Shown here one piece after another: positions 6,818 through 24,151 of a stretch of DNA of 32,607 nucleotides. Position numbers and translations under genes: made by a program. The number at the start of each line of letters is the position of its first letter. The first letter of the stretch is position 1. The stretch is from Candidatus Krumholzibacteriia bacterium (lineage in GTDB: Bacteria > Krumholzibacteriota > Krumholzibacteriia > JAJRXK01): NCBI GenBank assembly GCA_035268685.1, contig DATFKK010000035.1, positions 1-32,607 on the forward strand. The letters run 5' to 3'. The notes beneath the pieces are model-generated. The model did no database searches. It saw only the letters and a list, made by a program, of their open reading frames with translations, and was not told the DNA's origin.

Positions 6818-8219
6818 GCAGCCAGACGAGGAAGGCCGCTCCCCCCGTTTCCGCTCGTCCGGCCGTGAGGTGGCCCCGGTGATCCTCCACGATGCGCTTG
6901 CAGACGGCGAGCCCGAGCCCCGTTCCGTTGGGCTTGGTGGTGTAGAAGGGGTGGAAGATGCGTTCCAACCCCTCGGGCGGGATTCCGGGCCCGTCGTCGA
7001 GGACCCGCAACAGGACACCATCTTCGTGCGGACCGAGCTGCAGCTCGACGCGACCACCCTCTTTGAGCGCCTGAAGAGCATTCATCGTGAGATTCAGGAC
7101 GACCTGCTCGAGCTGGTTCGCGTCGCCGTGGACCGTCGGCAGGTCCTCCGCCACCGTGAACGCGAGCTCGGTCTTCTGCTTGCGGGCAGTGTGGCGGACG
7201 AGGCGTTCGATCCGCTCGAGCACGTGCTCGAAGCGGAGTTCCTCCATCTCCGGCTTCTCCGGGCGCGCGAACTCGAGCAGGTCGCGCACCAGGCCGCCGA
7301 TGCGTTCGGCCTCGTGAAGCATGACCTCGAGGTCCTCACGGCGCGGATCGTCGTGGTCGAGATCGAGCAGCAGGAACTCGGCGCTGTTGCTGATCACGCC
7401 GAGCGGCGTGCCGATCTCGTGGGCCAGCGCAGCGGCCATGTTGCCGACGGCGCTCATGCGCTCGGTGAAGGCCATCTTCTCGGCCGCGCGTCGGCGTTCG
7501 GTGACGTCGCGCAGCACGAAGCTGAAACCGTTCGGCCGGCCGCTGCCGTCCAGGAGCGGAGTGCGGCTCAGTTCCACCCACACCGCGGCGCCGGTTCGGG
7601 CGACCAACTCGATCTCGCGTTTGGCGATCGTCGCGTGCGGATCGCTGGGCGTGAAGACCTGCAGCGTGTCGTCGTCGACCTCGTCGAAGAGTTGATGAAT
7701 GGAACGTCCGACGGCCTCCTCGATCGACCAGCCGAAGATCGACTCTGCGCCCCGGTTCCAGAAGCGGACGGTGTTCTGTCGATCGACGGCGAACACGGCG
7801 TCGTTGCCGTTGCGGATCGCGCTCACCAGGAAACGTTCGCGCCAGGCGTGCCCACCTGTCCGGCTCGGGTCGGGAAGCGGAATCAGGATCGCCGCGACGC
7901 TTCCGCTGCCGTCACGAATGGGCGTGAGGACGACACGGAACGAATGGATACGACCGGACTCGTCCCGAATGGTGCGCACGGTCTCGATCGTGCGGCCCGT
8001 GCGTTGGACCTGCGGGGGAATGCAGTCCTCGCACCGTGTGTCGCCCGGGTTGAGGCCGGTGAAGCAGTGCTTCTCACACACCTCGAGACGCGAAGCCATC
8101 GATTCGCGGTAGGCGCGATTGGTCCAGACGGGGCGCAGATCCCCGTCGAGCACGATCACGCCGGTGTCGAGCGCGTCGAAGAGCGAGCGTGCGGAATCGA
8201 GAGCCGTGAGGTCGATCAT
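6795..8219 (-). CDS. PAS-PAS sensor histidine kinase with a four-cysteine PAS domain
   Basis: A 474-residue soluble kinase with no membrane segments. The first PAS domain (about 8-125) contains C48, C52, C63 and C66 in a CX3C...CX2C arrangement that could hold zinc or an Fe-S cluster, or act as a thiol switch. A second PAS domain (about 130-250) follows. The dimerisation helix has H267 in ALAHEIGTPLG, and the ATPase domain has N-box, DDGPGIP and GTGLGLAVCK motifs. There is no receiver domain, so it needs a separate partner; the NtrC-type regulator at 910-2301 fits this kinase class. ATG 8219 was chosen because the PAS domain begins just after it. An upstream in-frame TTG at 8291 would overlap the divergent gene more deeply. 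The ribosome-binding site is weak. Confidence 0.88.
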   Translation of the reverse strand: MIDLTALDSARSLFDALDTGVIVLDGDLRPVWTNRAYRESMASRLEVCEKHCFTGLNPGDTRCEDCIPPQVQRTGRTIETVRTIRDESGRIHSFRVVLTPIRDGSGSVAAILIPLPDPSRTGGHAWRERFLVSAIRNGNDAVFAVDRQNTVRFWNRGAESIFGWSIEEAVGRSIHQLFDEVDDDTLQVFTPSDPHATIAKREIELVARTGAAVWVELSRTPLLDGSGRPNGFSFVLRDVTERRRAAEKMAFTERMSAVGNMAAALAHEIGTPLGVISNSAEFLLLDLDHDDPRREDLEVMLHEAERIGGLVRDLLEFARPEKPEMEELRFEHVLERIERLVRHTARKQKTELAFTVAEDLPTVHGDANQLEQVVLNLTMNALQALKEGGRVELQLGPHEDGVLLRVLDDGPGIPPEGLERIFHPFYTTKPNGTGLGLAVCKRIVEDHRGHLTAGRAETGGAAFLVWLPAHVSPS

Positions 8220-12427: not shown

Positions 12428-15400
12428 GTGATACGCATGGGCGGATCCCCTCGGCCCGAACGTGAAGCGGAATCGCCGTCCGGCGCTCCCGCGCATCCGG
12501 CCGGCGACACGGTGCCCGAAAGCGACTCCCCCCCGAGGACACGGTCCCGGGTCTCCCTGCCGGTCGTGGGGATCGGCGCGTCCGCGGGTGGGCTGCAAGC
12601 GCTCGAGCAGTTGTTCACGAATCTGCCCGCCGACACCGGCGGGGCCTTCGTGGTCGTCCAGCACCTGTCGCCGGATTTCAAGAGCCTCATGGACGAGCTG
12701 CTCGCCAAGCACACGAGCATGCGGATCAAGGTCGTGCACGAGGACCAGCGCCTCGAAGCCGATCACATCTACCTGATCCCACCCCGCTGCGATCTGAAGC
12801 TCGACGGCGATCACGTCCGGGTCACCCGTCAGGACCGCGAAGCCGTGCCGGCGGCTCCGATCGACGTGTTCCTGAGCTCCCTGGCCGAGGACCGCGGCAA
12901 CGAGGCGGTGGCGGTGATCCTGTCCGGCACGGGCAGTGACGGCAGCCGGGGCGCCGCCCAGGTCAAGGAGAGCGGGGGCGTGGTGCTCGTCCAGGAGCCC
13001 TCCACCGCTGCGTTCAACGGCATGCCGCACAGCGCCATCGACGCCACCGAGGTCGACGCGGTGCTCGAACCCGGCGAACTGGCCGTCCGGCTGGCGCGCT
13101 ATCTCCACGAGCCCGAGCGGCGGCTCCTGCGTGGGGAGAAGCAACCGATCGGCGAGGACATGGCGCCTCTCGACGCGATCCTCGACGTGCTGCGGGCGAG
13201 TTACGGGATCGATTTCCATCTCTACAAGCCGAACACGTTGCTGCGACGCATCGAGCGACGCATGTCGATGCATGCCTGCGGCACTCTCGCCGAGTACTCG
13301 AAGAAGCTGCTGGAGTCGGAGCAGGAGCAGAAGATGCTCTACGGAGACCTGTTGATCCGGGTCACCGAGTTCTTCCGCGATCCCGAGAGTTACCAGGCGC
13401 TGCTCACCGAAGCACTGCCCGACCTGGTGGCCGAGAAGCAGCGGCAGGACGAGGAGCTCCGGATCTGGGTCGCGGGGTGCGCGTCGGGCGAGGAACCGAT
13501 CTCGCTGGCGATCCTGCTCGACGAGTACCGACGCACGCTCGACCAGCCCTTCGAGTACCGCATCTTCGCCACCGACATCGATCCCGAAACGGTGAGCCAG
13601 GCGGGTCTCGGTCACTTCCCCGCCGAGATCGCGGCGTCGATGGGCGAGGAGAGGCTCGACGCCTACTTCGAAGCGACCGATCACGGTTATCAGCTGGTGC
13701 CGGCCATGCGCGACCGGATCGTGTTCGCCCAGCACGACCTGGTCCGCGATCCTCCCTTCACGCGCATGGACCTGATCAGCTGTCGCAACGTGCTGATCTA
13801 CTTCCGGGCCGATCTGCAGAACCGGGTGCTGGGTCTGCTGGACTTCGCGCTGAATCCCAACGGTGTGCTCTTCCTGGGTCCGAGCGAGACCATCGGTGAG
13901 TTGAGCACCCACTTCGGGGCGCTGAGCTCGCGTTGGAAGATCTTCCGCAAGAGCGCCCAGGCGGGGCGGAAGATCACGTCGGAGGTGCTGCGGCGGGGCA
14001 TGTCGGCCTCGTCTTCGAGCACGGCGGGCATGGGATCACGGCGCGCCGCGGTCGTCCCGCCGGCCGAGCGTGTGGACTATTCGGCCGTCGCCACTGCCAT
14101 CGCCAACGAGTACCTGCTCGTCTGCCTGGTACTCGACGGCAACTTCCACGTGCGCTACGTACTGGGCGATCCGGCCGGCCTGCTGCGCATCCCACTGGGA
14201 ATGACCACCTACGACGTCTTCCGCATGCTCGACGGTGACCTGCGTCTGGCCGTCGGCACCGCCCTCCATCGGACGGAGAAGACGGGCGAGGACAGTGTCT
14301 GCCGACGCGTCCAGGTGACGGGGCTCGACGAGTTGGTCGACGTCAAGGTGAAGGCGCTCGACACCCGATCGAACGGCTCGGGCGCCTACGCCCTCATGGT
14401 GCAGCGGTCGAGGCTGCCCGAAAAGGTCGTGCCCGAGGACGAGGTGACCTTCGAGGTCGACGAGCGGGCTCGGGAGCGGATCGACCAGCTCGAGCACGAG
14501 CTGTCCTCGACGAAGGAACACCTGCAGGCCACCGTCGAGGAGCTCGAGACGGCGAACGAGGAGCTGCAGGCGGCCAACGAGGAACTGCTGGCCAGCAACG
14601 AGGAGCTGCAGAGCACCAACGAAGAGCTGCACTCGGTGAACGAGGAGCTCTACACGGTGAACGCCGAGCACCAGAGCAAGATCCGCGAACTCACGGTGCT
14701 CAACGCGGACATCGAGAACCTCTTCCAGAACCTCGACATCGGAATCGTCTTCCTCGATCCGGAGCTTCGGGTGCGCAAGTACACGCAGCGTGCCACCGAG
14801 ATCATCAAGTTGATCCCGCAGGACGTGGGGCGGCCGCTCGAGCATCTGAACCAGAACGTGCTCGACGTGGATCTCGTGGACACGACGCGCGCGGTGCTGA
14901 CGCGTGGAGAGATCCGGGAGCAACGCGTGCAGACCGCGAACGGTTCCTGGCTGTTCGTGCGAGTGCTGCCCTACCGGGACGGGTACGGCGAGACCCGCGG
15001 CGCGCTACTGACCCTCGTCGACATCACCGACGTCATCGAGGGCGAACGGACGCGGAACCGACTCGAAGAAGAGTTCCGGCAGTTCGCCGAGCACATCACC
15101 GACGTCTTCTGGCTCACCGACGCCACCGGCGAGCACGTCCTGTACGTGAACCCGAACTACGAGCTGTACTGGGGCAAGGCACCCGACCACGAACTCGGCC
15201 GCGACATACTCTTCGACGGTCTCCACCCCGAGGACCAGTCGAAGGTGCGCGCAGTCCTGGAATCGCCACAGTGGGCCGCTTTCGACCTCGAGTACCGCGT
15301 GCAGCTCGACGACGGGAGCGAGCGCTGGCTGCACAACCGCGCCTTCCCGGTGACCGATCGTCAGGGCGATGTTGCGCGTGTCGCCGGCGTCATCAGCGAC

Positions 15401-17068
15401 ATCACCCAGCGCAAGCAGGACGAGATCTCACTGCGACGGCTCGCCTCGATCGTCGAGTCGTCGAAGGACGGCCTGTTCAACCTGGACTCGCAGGGTGTGA
15501 TCCGCACCTGGAACCCGGGTGCCCAGGATGTCTTCGGGGTGGAAGCCGAACAGGTCGTCGGTCAGCCACTCACCTCCCTGTACCCGGACGAGTCCGAGTC
15601 CGAGTTCGAGGCGCTGTTCGAGCGGCTCCGTCAGGGCGAGTCCGTCGTCGACTACCAGTCGGCGCGCCACACTCCGGGCAAGGATCTCCGACACGTGGAG
15701 CTGACGGTGTCGGTGATCCGTGGCAACGGAGCGGGAGGCGGCGGTTTCGCCGTGGTCGCCCGCGACGTCACCGAGCGTCTCGCCCGGGAGACCGAGTTGC
15801 ACAAGCTCACGCAGAGCCTCGAGCGACAGGCGAACCACGATCCGCTGACGGGACTGCTCAACCGCCGCGGCCTCGAGAAGTTCCTGTTCGTCGAACTCGA
15901 GCGGACGCGGCGCGAGGGCCAGCGCGTGGGCGCGGTCCTCATCGACTGCGACAACTTCAAGCGGATCAACGACCAACTCGGCCACTCGGTCGGCGACGTC
16001 GTCCTGCAGAGCATCGCCAAGCGATTGCGCGCGGCCTTGCGTCCCTCCGACTTCCTGGGACGCATCGGTGGGGACGAGTTCATGGTGCTGTTGCCGAACA
16101 CGCGCCTGGCCGAGGCCCTGCAACTGGCCGAGCGCCTGCGCCTGGTGGTGGCGGAATCGCCTCTGCAACTGCAGGAGCAGATGATCGGGATCACGGCCAG
16201 CCTGGGCGTGACACTGGTACCGGAGAACGTCATCTCGATCGAGGAGATCGTGAGCCACTCCCAGCACGCGCTGTCGCAGAGCAAGAGCGCGGGAAAGAAT
16301 CGAGTGTCTCTACGCGAGGGGGACGACGATGCCCAACGCGAGGAGATCAGCGACGCCACCCGCGACGTGGGCGACCTCGTCCAGGCGCTCACCTCGGAGT
16401 CGGCCTTCCGGACCGTGGTCCAGCCGATCTTCGATCTGGTCAGCGAGCGTGCGGTGGCGTACGAGTTGTTGTCCCGGGGGCCGGAAGGAGCCTTCGAGAG
16501 CCCCGACGACTTCTTCCGGATCAGCGCCGAGAACAACATCCTCACCACGGTCGACCTGCTGTGCGCCAAGCGAGCCATGGACTGGGTGTCGAAGCACGCC
16601 AACGGAGTGCGCTACCACGTGAACCTCTTCCCGTCGACGCTCCTGGAGACCCCGGCCGAACGTCTGGAGCAGATGTTCGAGGTGCTGGGCGATCCGTCGC
16701 GCTTCTGCGTGGAGATCAGCGAGCAGCAGTTCGTGGGCGACGCGCACTACCTGCTCGAGAAGGTACGCCGGCTCCGCGAGTTCGGCGTGAGCGTGGCGCT
16801 CGACGACGTGGGATTCGGACGCAGCTCGCTCGAGTCGCTGATCCTGCTCGAGCCCGACATCATCAAGATCGACCAGTCCTTCGTCCGTGGTGCCCACGCC
16901 GACCCGGGGCAACAGCGGTCGCTGCAGCGGCTGGTCATGCTGAGCAAGAACCTCGATACCACCCTGGTGGCCGAGGGGATCGAGGAACACCGGGACATCG
17001 ACGTCCTGGTGGACATGGGCGTGCGCATGGGACAGGGCTTCCTGTGGGGCGAGCCGAGAGCCAACTGA
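12428..17068 (+). CDS. CheB-CheR-PAS-GGDEF-EAL hybrid signalling protein
   Basis: A 1546-residue soluble multidomain protein without membrane segments. Order: CheB methylesterase (about 45-225; S in GASAGG, H in VQHL, D in GTGSDG). CheR methyltransferase (about 245-520; [28 protein letters not shown]). A heptad-repeat coiled coil (about 680-760). Three PAS-like segments (about 760-1120). GGDEF (motif 1214-1218, with inhibitory-site RxxD five residues before). EAL (YELLSR at about 1345, then N, E, DD, K, E, Q all present). It could therefore both make and break c-di-GMP and act on methylated receptors. No chemoreceptor gene is nearby. GTG 12428 follows GGAGAGG; ATG 12437 is an alternative. A paralogue follows 25 bp downstream. 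Confidence 0.92.
14555..14665 (+). repeat. 21-bp coding repeat for an NEEL heptad coiled coil
   Basis: An Asn codon AAC recurs every 21 bp at 14555, 14576, 14597, 14618, 14639 and 14660, mostly followed by codons for Glu-Glu-Leu. The repeats encode a regular parallel coiled coil linking the CheR part to the PAS part. The paralogue at 17094 has the same array at 19119-19226. Confidence 0.8.
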
Positions 17069-17093
17069 TCGCCGTGTGCGCCGAGGTGGAGAG

Positions 17094-20000
17094 GTGACGA
17101 AGCCGAACGAGCACGATGCAGGCGCCGATCCGGCCCCGAGCAAGGGCGTGCGGCGCGACGAATTCCACGTCGTCGGGATCGGTGCGTCCGCCGGCGGCAA
17201 CGACGCTCTCTGTGCCCTGCTCGCCGGGCTCCCGCCGGACAGCGGGGCGGCCTACGTCGTGGCGCAGCACCTCGCGCCGGAAGCGCGCAGTCACCTGGCC
17301 GAACGCCTGGCCCGCCACACGTCCATGCCCGTGGACTGGCTCGACGAGCCGCGATTGCTCGAACCCGATCGCGTCTACCTGGCTCCGGCGCGCAGTCGGG
17401 TCCTCTTCGTCGACGGTCGGGTCGAGGCCCGGGTCGACGACGAGCGGGCGACGAACACCCATTCCGTCGACGTCCTCTTCGGCCGTCTGGCGCGCAGCTA
17501 CGCCGAACGAACCGTGGCCGTGGTCCTCTCGGGGGCCGGCTCCGACGGCAGCGCCGGCGTGCGGGCGGTGAAGAGCGCCGGTGGGACGGTCGTCGTCCAG
17601 GATCCCGATGAAGCTGCGTTCGACGGCATGCCGCGCAGTGCGATCTCCACCGGCGTCGTCGACGCGGTCCTGAGTCCTGCGGAGATTGCCGACCGACTCA
17701 GCACCTACCTCGGCCGGTTGGGGGCGGTTCTCCAACCGTGGTCCGAAGACGGCGACGAGCACGCCGTCGATCCCCTCGAGACCCTGATCGAGGTGCTGAG
17801 GCGCAAGAGCGGCTTCGACTTCCGACTCTACAAGGAAGGAACCATCCGGCGGCGTCTGGAGCGCCGGATGGCCCTGACCCAGGTCGGACGCTGGCAGGAC
17901 TACCACGAGCGGCTGATGGAATCGGCGGCCGAGCGCGACGCCCTGTGCCGCGACCTCTTGATCAACGTCACTTCGTTCTTCCGCGATCGCGATGCCTTCG
18001 CGGCGCTCGAGGAGCGCGCACTGCGCGACATCGTGGAGCAGGCCGACGAAGGTGGAGAGATCCGGGTCTGGGTGCCCGCCTGCTCCACCGGTGAGGAAGC
18101 CTTCTCGATCGCGATTCTCCTGCAGAAGGTGGTCGACGAGTCGCAGCGCGACCTGCGCTTCCGGATCTTCGCCACCGATCTCGACACCCGGGCGATCGAG
18201 ATGGCGTCTTCCGGACTCTTCGACGCCTCCATCGAGCAGCGCATGCGGCCCGAGGTGCTCCGTCGGTGCTTCGACGATCGCGGTGGCGGCTACGAAATCA
18301 AACGGCCGCTGCGCGAGAAGGTCGTGTTCGCCGCCCACGACGTCGCCCAGGACCCACCGTTCACGCGCATGGACCTGGTCAGCTGCCGCAACCTCCTGAT
18401 CTACCTGCGCCCGGAGCTCCAGGCGCACGTGCTGTCGTTGCTGTACTTCGCGCTCAGGCAGAAGGGTTATCTGTTCCTCGGGAGCAGTGAGACCCCGGTG
18501 TCGATCGACGAACACCTCGAAGTGGTGGACACCGAGATGCGTCTGTACCGCCGGATCGGCCCCGACGGAAGGCCGCCCCGGCTGCGTTCGCTCGACCGGA
18601 TCCTCGACCACGACGACCGTCACCCACCACCTGCCCGCCGGATCTCGGCCAAGGCCGTCGCGCAACACGCGGCGATCGCCCAGTCGCTCGTGGAACGCGA
18701 TTCCCTGTTCGCTCTCGTGGTCGACGGCCGACTGCATCTACAGCACGTCTACGGCGACCCGGGTCAGGCCCTGCGCGTTCCGAGCGGCACGGTGACCAAC
18801 GAGATCTCGGCTCTGACGCGCGGGGACTTCCGGTCGGCGGTCCTGGCCTCGGTGCCGCGAGCCCAGCGCACCGCGCGGGAGGTCGTCAGCCGCTCGGTGG
18901 CGCTCGATCACGGCGGTGCGGTGGAGCACGTGGACGTGCGCGTGGTGCCGGTGATCGAAGGGGAAGAGACGATCGATTCCTTCATCGTCCTCGTGAGCCG
19001 GATCGACCTCGGTGCAGTCGGTGACCGCGAGCTCCAGCACCGGGTCCACGACCTGGAGGTCGAACTCCACGGGGCGCGCGACGACCTGCGGCACACGGTG
19101 CAGGACCTGGAGCGCTCGAACGAGACCCTGCGCTCGACCAACGAAGAACTGATGGTCACCAACGAGGAGCTGCAGAGCGCGAACGAGGAGCTGCACTCGA
19201 CCAATGATCAGCTCTTCCGCACCAACCTCGACCACGAGGGGCGCATCTCGGAGCTGAGCGAGGTCACGCGAGACCTGGAGAACCTGTTCGTGGGTTCGGA
19301 GGTCGGAATCGTCTTCCTCGACGAGCACCTCTGCGTGCGCAAGTTCACGCCCGTGGCGGCCGCGGTGATCCACCTGCTCGACCAGGACGTCGGACGTCCG
19401 CTGCACCACCTGGCCCACGGGCTCCGTGACGTCAGGTTGGAGAAGGTGGCGGAGACGGCCCTGCACAGTGGACAGGATTCGTCGCAACGCGTGTGCACCG
19501 AGCAGGGGGAATGGTACCTGTTGCGCGCGCTTCCCTACCGCATCGAGGACGGATCGACGGCCGGAGTGCTGCTCACGTTGACCGACGTCACCGAGCTCCA
19601 GCGCGTGACCGATGCCATGCGCGCCTCGGTCGACCGTTTCCACGGATTCCTCGATGCCCTGCCCGACCGATTCCTGTGGCTGAACCCCGACGGGACCTGG
19701 CTGCGTCTGCGTGACGTCGCTTCTTGGCGCGACGAACCGCCGCGCGTGCTCGGGCACGACGAGCTGGCCGCCTTCCTGTCGGGTCCGGCCCGTAGCGCGG
19801 TCGAGGAGGCCGCGCGGCGCTCGGTCGAGAGCCAGGAACTGCAGACGGTGAGTTTCGACCAGTACCGCGGCGACACGCTCCAGTCCTACGAGGCCCGTCT
19901 GCTCGCGGTGGGCGATCAGGGTACGCTGTGCGTCCTGCGCGACGTCTCGGAGCTGCGCCGCAGCGAGCGCGAACTCGTCCACCTGACCCGCCACCTCGAA

Positions 20001-21239
20001 CAGCAGGCGAACTGCGACCACCTCACACAGCTACCCAACCGTCGTGGTCTGGAGAAGATCCTCTTCGCCGAGCTGGAGCGCTGCCGACGCCTCGGTGTGT
20101 GGTTGTCGGCGATCCTCGTCGACTGCGACGACTTCAAGCGCGTGAACGACACCCTGGGCCACGCCACCGGCGACGTCGTGTTGAAGGAGATCGGCAAGCG
20201 ACTGCGCCGCGTGTTGCGGCCCAGCGACACGCTCGGTCGCGTCGGGGGCGACGAGTTCCTCGTGCTGCTGCCCGACACCCGCGTCGCCGAGGCCATGCAG
20301 CTGGCCGAGCGTCTGCGCCTGGCGATCCACGAGTCACCGCTGACCTCGGGACGAGACGTCATCGCGGTCACGGGGAGCCTGGGCGTGGCCGGGGTCCCGC
20401 ACGACGTGGTCAGCATCGAAGAGGTGATCAGCCACGCGCAGCACGCGCTGCAGTACAGCAAGAACATCGGCAAGAACCGCGTCTCGACACGGGGCGACGA
20501 AGGCGACCAGGCCCTCGAGGACCCTCGCGAGGAGCTCATGTCGGTGCTCGAGACGGGTCGGGGCTTCCGCACCTTCGTCCAGCCGATCTTCGACCTGCGC
20601 AACGGCGAGACCACCGGCTACGAGTTGCTGACGCGCGGCCCGGGGGGAGCGCTCGAGAGTCCCGACGACATCTTCCAGCTCTCGTCGGAGAACAACATCC
20701 TCACCTCGGTCGACCTGCACTGCGTGAAGCGCAACGTGCAGTGGGCGCGCGAATACCTCGACCGCGGACGCTTCCACCTGAACCTCTTCCCGACCACGAT
20801 CCTCGACACGCCGGCTGCGCGGCTGCTGGCGGTGTTCGGCGAGCCCGACCTGCTGCAGCACTTCTGCGTCGAGATCAGCGAGCAGCAGTTCATCGGCGAC
20901 CCGAACTACCTGCGTCCGCACGTCGAGGAGTTGCGGCGCGAGGGCGCGCGGATCGCGCTCGACGACGTGGGCTTCGGGCGCAGCTCGCTCGAGTCGCTGC
21001 TGCTGCTCGAACCCGACACGGTGAAACTCGACAAGAGCGTGGTGAACGGCGCGGCCACCGACACGGCCCAGCGACGCACACTGCAGCGGCTGGTGAAGGT
21101 GATCCGGGGCATCGACGCCGACATCGTGGCCGAGGGGATCGAGACCGAGGCGGACCGCGACCTGCTGCTCGACCTGGGCGTGCCCTTCGGGCAGGGCTAC
21201 CTGCTGGGCCGCCCACGCGACTCGATCCTGGCGAACTGA
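17094..21239 (+). CDS. CheB-CheR-PAS-GGDEF-EAL hybrid signalling protein, second paralogue
   Basis: A 1381-residue paralogue of the preceding gene, about 160 residues shorter because one PAS segment is missing. CheB residues are present (GASAGG, AQHL, GAGSDG). CheR has VTSFFRD, PACSTGEE and MDLVSCRNLLIYL. The heptad coil is at about 675-710. PAS-like segments follow, then GGDEF at 1051-1055 with RxxD before it, and an EAL domain ([41 protein letters not shown]). All catalytic residues I can check are kept. GTG 17094 is chosen because AGGTGGA lies just upstream; GTG 17076 would add six residues but lacks a ribosome-binding site. The 25-bp gap suggests an operon with the first paralogue. Confidence 0.91.
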   Translation: MTKPNEHDAGADPAPSKGVRRDEFHVVGIGASAGGNDALCALLAGLPPDSGAAYVVAQHLAPEARSHLAERLARHTSMPVDWLDEPRLLEPDRVYLAPARSRVLFVDGRVEARVDDERATNTHSVDVLFGRLARSYAERTVAVVLSGAGSDGSAGVRAVKSAGGTVVVQDPDEAAFDGMPRSAISTGVVDAVLSPAEIADRLSTYLGRLGAVLQPWSEDGDEHAVDPLETLIEVLRRKSGFDFRLYKEGTIRRRLERRMALTQVGRWQDYHERLMESAAERDALCRDLLINVTSFFRDRDAFAALEERALRDIVEQADEGGEIRVWVPACSTGEEAFSIAILLQKVVDESQRDLRFRIFATDLDTRAIEMASSGLFDASIEQRMRPEVLRRCFDDRGGGYEIKRPLREKVVFAAHDVAQDPPFTRMDLVSCRNLLIYLRPELQAHVLSLLYFALRQKGYLFLGSSETPVSIDEHLEVVDTEMRLYRRIGPDGRPPRLRSLDRILDHDDRHPPPARRISAKAVAQHAAIAQSLVERDSLFALVVDGRLHLQHVYGDPGQALRVPSGTVTNEISALTRGDFRSAVLASVPRAQRTAREVVSRSVALDHGGAVEHVDVRVVPVIEGEETIDSFIVLVSRIDLGAVGDRELQHRVHDLEVELHGARDDLRHTVQDLERSNETLRSTNEELMVTNEELQSANEELHSTNDQLFRTNLDHEGRISELSEVTRDLENLFVGSEVGIVFLDEHLCVRKFTPVAAAVIHLLDQDVGRPLHHLAHGLRDVRLEKVAETALHSGQDSSQRVCTEQGEWYLLRALPYRIEDGSTAGVLLTLTDVTELQRVTDAMRASVDRFHGFLDALPDRFLWLNPDGTWLRLRDVASWRDEPPRVLGHDELAAFLSGPARSAVEEAARRSVESQELQTVSFDQYRGDTLQSYEARLLAVGDQGTLCVLRDVSELRRSERELVHLTRHLEQQANCDHLTQLPNRRGLEKILFAELERCRRLGVWLSAILVDCDDFKRVNDTLGHATGDVVLKEIGKRLRRVLRPSDTLGRVGGDEFLVLLPDTRVAEAMQLAERLRLAIHESPLTSGRDVIAVTGSLGVAGVPHDVVSIEEVISHAQHALQYSKNIGKNRVSTRGDEGDQALEDPREELMSVLETGRGFRTFVQPIFDLRNGETTGYELLTRGPGGALESPDDIFQLSSENNILTSVDLHCVKRNVQWAREYLDRGRFHLNLFPTTILDTPAARLLAVFGEPDLLQHFCVEISEQQFIGDPNYLRPHVEELRREGARIALDDVGFGRSSLESLLLLEPDTVKLDKSVVNGAATDTAQRRTLQRLVKVIRGIDADIVAEGIETEADRDLLLDLGVPFGQGYLLGRPRDSILAN
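19119..19229 (+). repeat. 21-bp coding repeat for a heptad coiled coil (second paralogue)
   Basis: Asn codons recur every 21 bp at 19119, 19140, 19161, 19182, 19203 and 19224, the same number and period as in the first paralogue. Three units read NEEL; others have diverged (NETL, NDQL). Confidence 0.75.
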
Positions 21240-21336
21240 CGCGGCCGGGCTGGGCGATCTTGGCCGACGGGATTATCTGTTCTGCTCGACCGCGGTGTCG
21301 TGCGCGGCGGTCGGCCGCCACCCCGCCGGGAGTCCC

Positions 21337-22188
21337 ATGCGTCCGCTGCTGCTGATCCTTCGTATGATCAAGTGGGAGCACACCATCTTCGCGCTCCCCT
21401 TCGCCCTGGTGTCGCTGCTGGTGGCCAGCGACGGCGTGCCGGCCTGGAGCACGCTGGGCTGGATCCTCGTGGCGATGATCGGCGCCCGCTCGACGGCCAT
21501 GGCCTTCAACCGGCTCGTCGACGCGCGGATCGACGCCGCGAACCCGCGAACGGCCACCCGCGAGATCCCGAGCGGTGCGCTGAGTCGCACCGCGGTGCTC
21601 GTGTTCACCCTGGCCACGGCGGGGCTGTTCGTGTTCGCCGCCTTCATGCTCAATCCGCTGTGCTTCGCGCTGTCGCCGGTGGCCCTGCTGATCGTGTGGT
21701 TCTACTCGCTGACCAAGCGCTTCACGGCGCTCAGCCACCTGTTCCTGGGTCTGGCGCTGGGCGTGGCGCCGATCGGGGCGTGGCTGGCCGTGCAGGGCGA
21801 GTTCGCGGCCTTCCCTCTGATCCTGGCCTTCGCGGTGCTGTGCTGGGTCGCTGGTTTCGACGTTCTGTACGCCTGTCAGGACGTCGATTTCGACCGGAAG
21901 GCCGGACTGCGTTCGATTCCCGCCGCGATCGGGCAACGGGCCGCCCGTTGGGCCGCACGCGGATTGCACGTGCTGGCGGTGGGGGCGTGGGCGTGGGCCT
22001 TCCTGTCGGTCGGCCTGGGGGCGGTGGCCCTCGCCGGCGTCGTGGTGACCGCGGTGTTGCTCGGCTACGAGCACTGGCTGGTCCGCGGCGACGATCTGAG
22101 CCGGATCGACCGGGCCTTCTTCGAGGTCAACAGCTGGATCGGGATGGTCCTGCTCGGGTCGACCCTGCTGGAGCTCTACCTGGTCTGA
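21337..22188 (+). CDS. mqnP: UbiA-family polyprenyltransferase, MqnP-like
   Basis: A 283-residue integral membrane protein with about eight hydrophobic segments. It carries both UbiA Asp motifs: NRLVDARIDAANPRT early, and QDVDFDRKAGLRSIP near residue 190. These bind Mg-diphosphate and transfer a polyprenyl chain to an aromatic acid. The neighbours (an MqnE/C-like gene and mqnA) favour the futalosine-route prenyltransferase MqnP over ubiquinone UbiA. ATG 21337 follows GGGAG; it is preferred over an upstream start at 21295, where the extra 14 residues look non-native. The gene is separated by 97 bp from the signalling genes and by about 75-90 bp from the next gene in the same direction. Confidence 0.9.
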   Translation: MRPLLLILRMIKWEHTIFALPFALVSLLVASDGVPAWSTLGWILVAMIGARSTAMAFNRLVDARIDAANPRTATREIPSGALSRTAVLVFTLATAGLFVFAAFMLNPLCFALSPVALLIVWFYSLTKRFTALSHLFLGLALGVAPIGAWLAVQGEFAAFPLILAFAVLCWVAGFDVLYACQDVDFDRKAGLRSIPAAIGQRAARWAARGLHVLAVGAWAWAFLSVGLGAVALAGVVVTAVLLGYEHWLVRGDDLSRIDRAFFEVNSWIGMVLLGSTLLELYLV

Positions 22189-22275
22189 GCCGCGACGCGG
22201 CGGTGGCGTGGGAATCGACCGGGCCTACCTTTTCCGCTCGACCCCACGCCTCCGGTACGCCCCTTGGAGCCCATC

Positions 22276-23283
22276 TTGGTCAGTCATCCCGATCGGGACG
22301 AGCTGCGCGCGCTGCTCGACCGCCCGAACATCCACGACATCACCGCGGCCGCCGACGAGGCTCGCCGGGAACGGCACGATCGGACCACGACCGTGTCCGT
22401 GGTCGAGCCCTTCGATCCGCGTCAGGCCTACACCCGATGCCCGCTCACGGGCATCGGGGCCGGCGAGGGGGGCTTCGCAAGGGCACTCGACGACATCCAC
22501 GACATCGTGACCGACCTGCTGGTCCTGGTGCCGGAGGGTGCCTCGGCCGACGAGGTGCGCTCGATCTGGCGTCTGCTGCCGCTTCCGCCGGCCGACGGTG
22601 GCGACGAGATGCTGCCCACGGTGCAACTGGGTACGACCGACACCTGGATCGAAGCCGGCATCGACCACGACCTGGCCGCCTGGATGGAGCAGGGCATGCG
22701 GGTGGTGAGCGACGGGATCGATCCGCGCAACCACCCTGCCCGCGGCATCGACCCGGCGGCGCGCTGGACCTCGTTCTGGCACACCGCCGCCAACGCCGGG
22801 CTGCGCGGCCACGCCACGGTCCTCTTCGGACCGGACCACGACCTCGATTCCGTCTTCGCGCAGATCGACGCCATCAACGCGGTGCAGGCCGACACCGGCG
22901 TGTTCCTGTCGGTGAGCCCCTGCGTGATCGGATCGGGGCCCGCCGGTGACGACGACGATGCGCTGACGCACGCGAGCTTCGACCTGCGGGTGCTCGCCGC
23001 CTGCCGTCTGGGCCTTCCGGGGGTCGACCACCTCAGCCTGCGCTACGAACGCAGCGACCTGAAGACCGCGCACACCTCGCTGCTCTGCGGCGTCGACGAC
23101 CTGATCGGGCACCTGTTCCTGGGGGCCCGCGACCGCAAGGCCGACACCGAGGCCAAGGATCTGTCGCTGCGCGAGATGCGGGCGTGGCTGGAGGAAGCGG
23201 ACTTCACCGCCCGCGTGCGCAACGGTGTGTTCGAGACCGAGGACTTCGCCGCGTTGCTGAACGCTCCGGAGGAGCCGGCGTGA
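22276..23283 (+). CDS. MqnE/MqnC-like barrel protein lacking the radical-SAM cysteine motif
   Basis: A protein of about 335 residues that aligns by eye along its length with aminofutalosine synthase MqnE and the related MqnC. The N-terminal helix reads ITAAADEARRERH. The centre has GIDPAARWTSFWHTAANAGL and GHATVLFG, and the end has GVDDL and an EADFTARVRNGVF-type tail. The CX3CX2C motif that binds the radical-SAM cluster is missing: at its expected place only C55 remains (YTRCPLTGIG). It is thus probably a non-radical paralogue with a new or structural role, not a working MqnE. Lying between mqnP and mqnA and overlapping mqnA by GTGA, it is surely tied to menaquinone synthesis. The start is uncertain: TTG 22276 follows GGAG, TTG 22264 is an alternative, and an ATC after GGAGCCC mimics the local pattern. 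Confidence 0.75.
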   Translation: MVSHPDRDELRALLDRPNIHDITAAADEARRERHDRTTTVSVVEPFDPRQAYTRCPLTGIGAGEGGFARALDDIHDIVTDLLVLVPEGASADEVRSIWRLLPLPPADGGDEMLPTVQLGTTDTWIEAGIDHDLAAWMEQGMRVVSDGIDPRNHPARGIDPAARWTSFWHTAANAGLRGHATVLFGPDHDLDSVFAQIDAINAVQADTGVFLSVSPCVIGSGPAGDDDDALTHASFDLRVLAACRLGLPGVDHLSLRYERSDLKTAHTSLLCGVDDLIGHLFLGARDRKADTEAKDLSLREMRAWLEEADFTARVRNGVFETEDFAALLNAPEEPA

Positions 23284-24095
23284 AGTCCCGGGGCCTCCGC
23301 GTGGGTGCCGTGGGGTTCCTGAACACGGTTCCGTTGATCGAGGGCCTCGACGACGAGCACGGGATCGAGGTGAGCCGCGACCTGCCGTCGCGCCTCGCGC
23401 GCTCGCTCGCAGCCGGGGACATCGACGTCGGCCTCATTCCCGCCGCCGAGTACCTGCGTGGTGTCGGCAGCTCCATGGTTCCCGGGCTTTGCATCGGTGC
23501 CCACGGCACCGTTCGCACCGTGAAGGTCTTCAGCCGCGTGCCCCTGCGCGAGGCCGAGCGCGTGAGTGTCGACCGCGGATCGCGCACCAGCGTGGCCCTG
23601 CTGCGGATCCTGCTCGCCGAGCTGCACGGGATCACGCCGGAGCTCGAGGAGTTCGAGCCCCGTCACGAGTCGCTCTTCGACCGCGCGCCCACCGCCCTGG
23701 TGATCGGCGACCGGGCCGACGAGATCGACGGGACCGACTTGCACGTCCACGACCTGGGACAGGTGTGGAACGATCTCACGGGGCTGCCCTTCGTGTTCGC
23801 CGCCTGGGTGTTCAGCGACGAGCTCGGACGCCCGGAACGGGCCGACGACCGCCGACGGCTGGTCACCGCCCTACGCCGGGCCGCCGAGCGCGGGCGCGGC
23901 GACCTCGACCGCCTGGCCCATCGCGAGGCGACGACCAGCGGCTGGGACGTGGGCCGGATCACCAGCTACTGGCGCGAGTTCGTCCAGTTCGACCTGGGCG
24001 CCGCCGAACTGGCCGGCCTGCGGCGGTTCGCCGAGCTGGGCGCCCGCCACGGCGTGATCGAACACCCCCGCGAGGTGGCCGTCGCGGAGGCCTGA
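23280..24095 (+). CDS. mqnA: chorismate dehydratase MqnA
   Basis: A 271-residue enzyme of the periplasmic-binding-protein-like MqnA/MqnD fold. It opens with RVGAVGFLNTVPLIEGL, followed by LARSLAAGDIDVGLIPAAEYL, the substrate pocket region. VSVDRGSRTSVALLRILL and VWNDLTGLPFVFAAWVF are further family marks. It dehydrates chorismate to 3-enolpyruvylbenzoate, the first step of the futalosine menaquinone pathway, in the cytosol. GTG 23280 overlaps the preceding stop (GTGA) and follows GGAGGAG, so translation is coupled to the MqnE-like gene. A strong terminator follows 24 bp after the stop. Confidence 0.94.
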   Translation: MKSRGLRVGAVGFLNTVPLIEGLDDEHGIEVSRDLPSRLARSLAAGDIDVGLIPAAEYLRGVGSSMVPGLCIGAHGTVRTVKVFSRVPLREAERVSVDRGSRTSVALLRILLAELHGITPELEEFEPRHESLFDRAPTALVIGDRADEIDGTDLHVHDLGQVWNDLTGLPFVFAAWVFSDELGRPERADDRRRLVTALRRAAERGRGDLDRLAHREATTSGWDVGRITSYWREFVQFDLGAAELAGLRRFAELGARHGVIEHPREVAVAEA

Positions 24096-24118: not shown

Positions 24119-24151
24119 CCGCCCCGGAGGCCTTCCGGGGCGGATTTTTCT
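24119..24151 (+). terminator. rho-independent terminator after mqnA
   Basis: CCGCCCCGGA and TCCGGGGCGG form a perfect 10-bp GC-rich stem with a 5-nt loop, followed by ATTTTTCTT. This is the clearest intrinsic terminator in the window and closes the menaquinone gene group. Confidence 0.9.

Follow-up and report, generated by a model that had tools for sequence, protein, structure and literature searches.

Introduction

It is well established that some metabolic enzymes of eukaryotes are regulated by dead paralogs. The AdoMetDC prozyme (PMC5201418) and the dead paralog of DHS (PMC3663545) act on their active kin, and so does the pseudoenzyme PDX1.2 in vitamin B6 synthesis (PMC6829848). The sequence signal of the radical-SAM family does not stop at the cysteine motif but continues for 200-250 residues towards the C terminus (PMC1282579), which fits the recognition of a relative that has no such motif. 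A limited and partial literature search turned up neither a cluster-less MqnC/MqnE paralog nor any dead paralog of the radical-SAM enzymes that act in menaquinone synthesis. Here, we analysed a window of 32,607 nucleotides (contig DATFKK010000035.1, the whole stretch studied) from a Candidatus Krumholzibacteriia bacterium, in which a degenerate MqnC/MqnE paralog is kept as an intact protein in a menaquinone (vitamin K2) operon, probably either as a non-catalytic helper or as a repurposed protein.

Organization of the locus

The features of the locus are as follows, in window coordinates.

21295..22188, + strand: mqnP, UbiA-family prenyltransferase gene, first gene of the unit (PF01040, 1.5e-59)
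22266..22269, + strand: GGAG, likely ribosome-binding site for the TTG at 22276 (TTGGAGCCCATC-TTG)
22276..23283, + strand: degenerate MqnC/MqnE paralog (pseudo radical-SAM protein), 335 aa (hhalign, Foldseek; no CX3CX2C; conserved in four species)
23280..24095, + strand: mqnA, chorismate dehydratase gene, whose start overlaps the stop of the degenerate paralog (GTGA; PF02621, 4.2e-51)
24119..24143, + strand: terminator-like hairpin with a T-run 3' of mqnA, likely end of the unit

The best NCBIfam matches of the upstream gene were UbiA-like polyprenyltransferases, including MqnP models, and its product was 62-68% identical to MqnP of the three relatives described below. A consensus scan found no promoter-like site between mqnP and the degenerate-paralog gene, and a hairpin follows mqnA, which suggests that the three genes form a single unit. 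Judged from the sequence, the start of the degenerate paralog with the best support in all four species is a TTG that follows a purine-rich site. An antisense reading of the locus was rejected, because the forward frame has a coding GC pattern (0.73/0.47/0.91) and conserved homologues. Further upstream, the window also contains two very long adjacent ORFs of 1546 and 1387 aa (12428-21239); the second, just upstream of mqnP, resembles a signalling fusion of CheB/CheR type that also has GGDEF and EAL parts.

The host genome (G000) belongs to one Krumholzibacteriota family, f1, together with three other genomes (G001-G003), and gene order was compared among the four. The order mqnP, degenerate paralog, mqnA was found in G000 and G002. 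In G001, mqnP is followed after about 6.5-6.7 kb by degenerate paralog, mqnA and mqnC, and the spacer (L061:3237-9743) holds very long open frames. In G003, mqnP and the degenerate paralog are followed by a hairpin and a convergent gene, and mqnA-mqnC is on another contig. Thus, mqnP is the steadier neighbour, which adjoins the degenerate paralog in three of the four species and lies upstream of it in the fourth. The junction with mqnA is GTGA in G000, ATGA in G002 and a 4-base gap in G001. An earlier note on this DNA had set the gene between mqnP and mqnA with a GTGA overlap, and the PF01040 and PF02621 matches and the stop/start read agree with it; the position next to mqnA, whose conservation in relatives it proposed to check, held in three of the four species and failed in G003, where the convergent gene follows.

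Homology and fold of the degenerate paralog

The degenerate paralog matched no Pfam family at E values up to 1 and was absent from the PF04055 (Radical_SAM) matches of its genome. Its NCBIfam matches all lay over the C-terminal half and far under the cut-offs: MqnC (TIGR03699) was the best (residues 154-324, 1.2e-13, 50.6 bits vs a cut-off of 428.1), whereas the separate true MqnC of the same genome scored 474 bits, and it was followed by CofH (6.8e-08) and MqnE (TIGR03700, 1.7e-07, 30.5 bits vs a cut-off of 434.55). The hhalign comparison with an MqnC/MqnE profile extended over residues 13-333 (306 columns, E 7.4e-26), and the C-terminal half gave a profile match to MqnE 6xi9 (E 1.1e-11).

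The AlphaFold model was built from four sequences and had a pLDDT of 65 and a pTM of 0.68, with a pLDDT of about 40-65 in the N-terminal half. Its best Foldseek structure was MqnE of Pedobacter heparinus (6xig, E 4e-15, TM 0.68), and the matches ranking after MqnE were HydE, ThiH, BioB and PylB, all of them radical-SAM barrels, so the best match was not an unrelated barrel family. A second structure prediction with MqnC added brought no gain (pTM 0.65 vs 0.68). The hhalign range and the Foldseek match of the AlphaFold model to MqnE therefore support the proposed MqnE/MqnC fold from the N terminus to the C terminus, and the protein belongs to the MqnC/MqnE/CofH homology family along the barrel, by sequence as well as by fold.

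Like MqnE (6xi9, 6xig), the degenerate paralog has the barrel fold and, in its C-terminal half, the W before helix 5, AT(V/M)(L/M)(Y/F)G, Q..TG.F, G.DDL.G and the Arg near the end, but it is without CX3CX2C, the PGGGAE loop and GH.E, and the identity in the structural alignment is 17%. In a tree of the C-terminal half, the degenerate-paralog family grouped as a single clade with 100/100 support, set on a branch 4.25 changes per column long. Taken together, the evidence for the origin and structure of the degenerate paralog is strong.

Lost and replaced residues

Residue losses were read from a comparison with 38 active MqnC/MqnE homologues of the class. The segments concerned are as follows.

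22414..22452, + strand: cluster-site remnant D47-PRQAYTR-C55-PLT-G59, where active enzymes have NxxNxCxxxCxxC (alignments)
22693..22734, + strand: family-specific conserved motif G140-MRVVSDGIDPRN-H153, where active enzymes have AGLxSxPGGGAE (PGGG loop deleted)

C55 is the sole cysteine of the stretch that aligns with CX3CX2C, and three other cysteines are far off. The reduction of the motif to one cysteine had been noticed before and is correct, but the loss is broader than was claimed, since the PGGG loop has gone too, along with many further invariant residues. Neither CX3CX2C nor a variant of it, as expected of an active radical-SAM enzyme, was present in any of the four members: the first cluster cysteine is missing from all four and the third from three, and three have kept a Cys at the second position. 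The PGGG columns, which we take to be part of the SAM site, are deleted in all four. Two invariant Asn before the cluster site, the GG after beta2, GH.E and several invariant His, Glu and Trp of the active homologues are also lost.

In place of the PGGG region, the four degenerate paralogs have in common a new motif, G(L/M)xV(I/V)SDG(I/V)xPxxH, and at (near-)invariant positions all four carry the same swaps, namely H186 to P, H196 to Q, G209 to V and W257 to Y; H172, (near-)invariant in the active homologues, is A or G. The uniform new residues of the family are D47, D146, H153, Y257, D261, K263 and H266, and G140, W164, G175, G185, Q204, R244, L269, G272, D275 and R315, likewise (near-)invariant in the active homologues, are kept. 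The uniformity of the replacements over four species argues that this is not unconstrained decay.

Distribution and constraint

The degenerate paralog was present in all four f1 genomes (identity 39-51%), the relatives being metagenome-assembled genomes named Candidatus Krumholzibacteriota/Krumholzibacteriia. A profile of the four members scored 500-580 bits with them and 70 bits with the next best protein in the class, a true MqnE. No degenerate paralog was found in 76 other genomes of the phylum (E <= 1e-20) or in a wider set of 383 non-f1 genomes (E <= 1e-22). A peptide-pattern search over about 85,000 species genomes, which used two conserved peptides and detects only stretches matching them, returned the three relatives only, and an earlier genome-contig scan with a single degenerate-paralog sequence had found nothing.

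In radical-SAM barrels, the N-terminal half holds the cluster and most of the SAM site. The two halves of the degenerate paralog differ in conservation, as follows.

22705..23283, + strand: better conserved C-terminal half-barrel of the degenerate paralog (between-species identity of 46-60% in the C half vs 31-40% in the N half)

No such asymmetry was found in true MqnC and MqnE, whose halves have 68-81% and 70-84% identity. The pN/pS of the degenerate paralog was 0.59-0.78 and below 1 in all pairs, which is a weak test because synonymous sites are near saturation. Its pN was 0.37-0.44, vs 0.24-0.29 for MqnP, which means that it evolves faster than its neighbours. There were no internal stops in the frames of any of the four species. 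The motif-less form is shared by all three relatives, which do not carry the cysteine motif as they would if the gap here were a sequencing error; such an error was rejected, because four separate assemblies carry intact frames.

Radical enzymes of the futalosine pathway in the same genomes

A true MqnE (471-491 bits) and a true MqnC with CX3CX2C were present in each of the four f1 genomes. MqnA and UbiD also occurred in each, as did another PF02621 protein, of the MqnD type. The genome search for CX3CX2C-bearing mqnE and mqnC elsewhere, which the earlier note had proposed, thus found both of them (contigs C173 and C116). Since MqnC and MqnE are intact in all four genomes, the degenerate paralog replaces neither radical enzyme, and its candidacy as a replacement was rejected.

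Some other proteins of this type have unusual motifs. In family f4, MqnE-type proteins have CX5CX2C in place of CX3CX2C and otherwise look intact; they are encoded at L055:290-1426 (-), L030:589-2001, L045:6801-7928 (-) and L038:1366-2463 (-), and the motifs are CVYAKSCQFC, CIYAKNCTFC, CVNHGSCRFC and CIYSGDCKLC. Genome G010 has a divergent MqnC/MqnE-like pair with long branches and overlapping ORFs (L049:5925-7043 (-) and 7004-8101 (-)), of which the first protein keeps CIIGCRFC and has lost the PGGG loop, perhaps another partial decay.

Discussion

The reading that we prefer, to which we give about an even chance, is that a fast-diverged MqnC/MqnE paralog, unable to cleave SAM, acts non-catalytically in the futalosine pathway; the evidence for the mechanism is moderate. 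The gene arose when an MqnC/MqnE-type radical-SAM enzyme was duplicated, either in the common ancestor of the one Krumholzibacteriota family or earlier; the copy lost the [4Fe-4S]/SAM site and retained the barrel, the C-terminal half above all. The product would most likely be a prozyme-like partner, forming a hetero-oligomer with MqnC or MqnE via surfaces common to the paralogs, or a putative ligand-binding regulator, with a futalosine-type intermediate held in its altered barrel. How much of the degenerate paralog is made relative to MqnA would be set by its TTG start together with the stop/start overlap. The earlier note had already put forward a regulatory or scaffolding pseudo-enzyme, or a partner of a true MqnE/MqnC, and its interpretation is supported in part. 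Homology, loss of the site, the uniform swaps, the asymmetry between the N and C halves, constraint, linkage and intact MqnA, MqnC, MqnD and MqnE all count for a non-catalytic paralog, and the protein is what is expected of a pseudoenzyme paralog: catalytic residues are lost, the protein is under constraint and an active paralog is present. On the other hand, the new uniform residues could equally form a new catalytic site, and the faster evolution than in the neighbours and the low model confidence of the N half also count against it. To our knowledge, MqnC and MqnE in other lineages work without such a partner. More specifically, we tentatively suggest, as a possibility and no more firmly than that, a radical-SAM prozyme, in a putative hetero-oligomer with MqnC/MqnE and needed for activity, stability or protection, or else a barrel switched to another step of the pathway.

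The main rival, which we consider unlikely, is a neofunctionalised barrel with a non-radical activity, e.g., the nucleosidase step from aminofutalosine or futalosine to DHFL, which is normally carried out by MqnB/MTAN. Canonical MqnB/MTAN was not found in the four f1 genomes (G000-G003; L110-L116), where all PF01048 matches are purine-nucleoside phosphorylases by NCBIfam, and the new polar residues of the degenerate-paralog family (SDG, H153, DLK..H) are invariant. However, MqnB over the cut-off was found in none of the 78 genomes of the class, some of which have MqnC and MqnE and lack the degenerate paralog. A correlation of the degenerate paralog with MqnB loss was thus unsupported, and this class-wide gap, being unlinked to the degenerate paralog, favours the nucleosidase reading only weakly. 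Nucleosidases were also missing from the best structural matches and from the family matches (Pfam, NCBIfam), and a phosphorylase could perform the step; a second, divergent purine-nucleoside phosphorylase, present in all four f1 genomes (one on contig C87), is a candidate.

It is rather improbable that the protein has a role outside menaquinone synthesis, or on prenylation beside MqnP, with the link to mqnA and to the ancestral pathway being incidental. MqnP is indeed the most constant neighbour and mqnA is not adjacent in G003, but the homology to MqnC/MqnE and the stop/start overlap with mqnA in two species argue against it. Redox chemistry by a metal or a non-standard cluster, still bound via C55 and other residues, is highly improbable: G003 retains CGIC (CX2C) and three of the four have a Cys at the second position, but none of the four has the first Cys or the PGGG loop, the Cys of G002 is shifted by one, and the site has no common set of cysteines. 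A decaying relic or a sequencing or assembly error, with which only the divergence faster than in the neighbours would agree, is hardly credible: the frames are intact in four separate assemblies that are about 40-50% identical here, the new motifs recur in all of them, pN/pS stays below 1 and the GC pattern is that of coding DNA.

The degenerate paralog provides a clean case: its active paralogs coexist with it, constraint has eased on the SAM half but not on the other, and its linkage to the pathway is conserved. It would allow a test of whether oxygen-sensitive radical enzymes can recruit their own dead copies as partners. It is also a warning for annotation, which means that MqnC-like matches beside mqnA need not be enzymes.

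The trypanosomatid AdoMetDC prozyme, the DHS regulatory subunit and plant PDX1.2 are likewise dead paralogs beside active kin, in the same pathway and in one clade. Those three are eukaryotic and were studied experimentally, whereas in Krumholzibacteriota we infer the role, and the parent is a radical-SAM enzyme.
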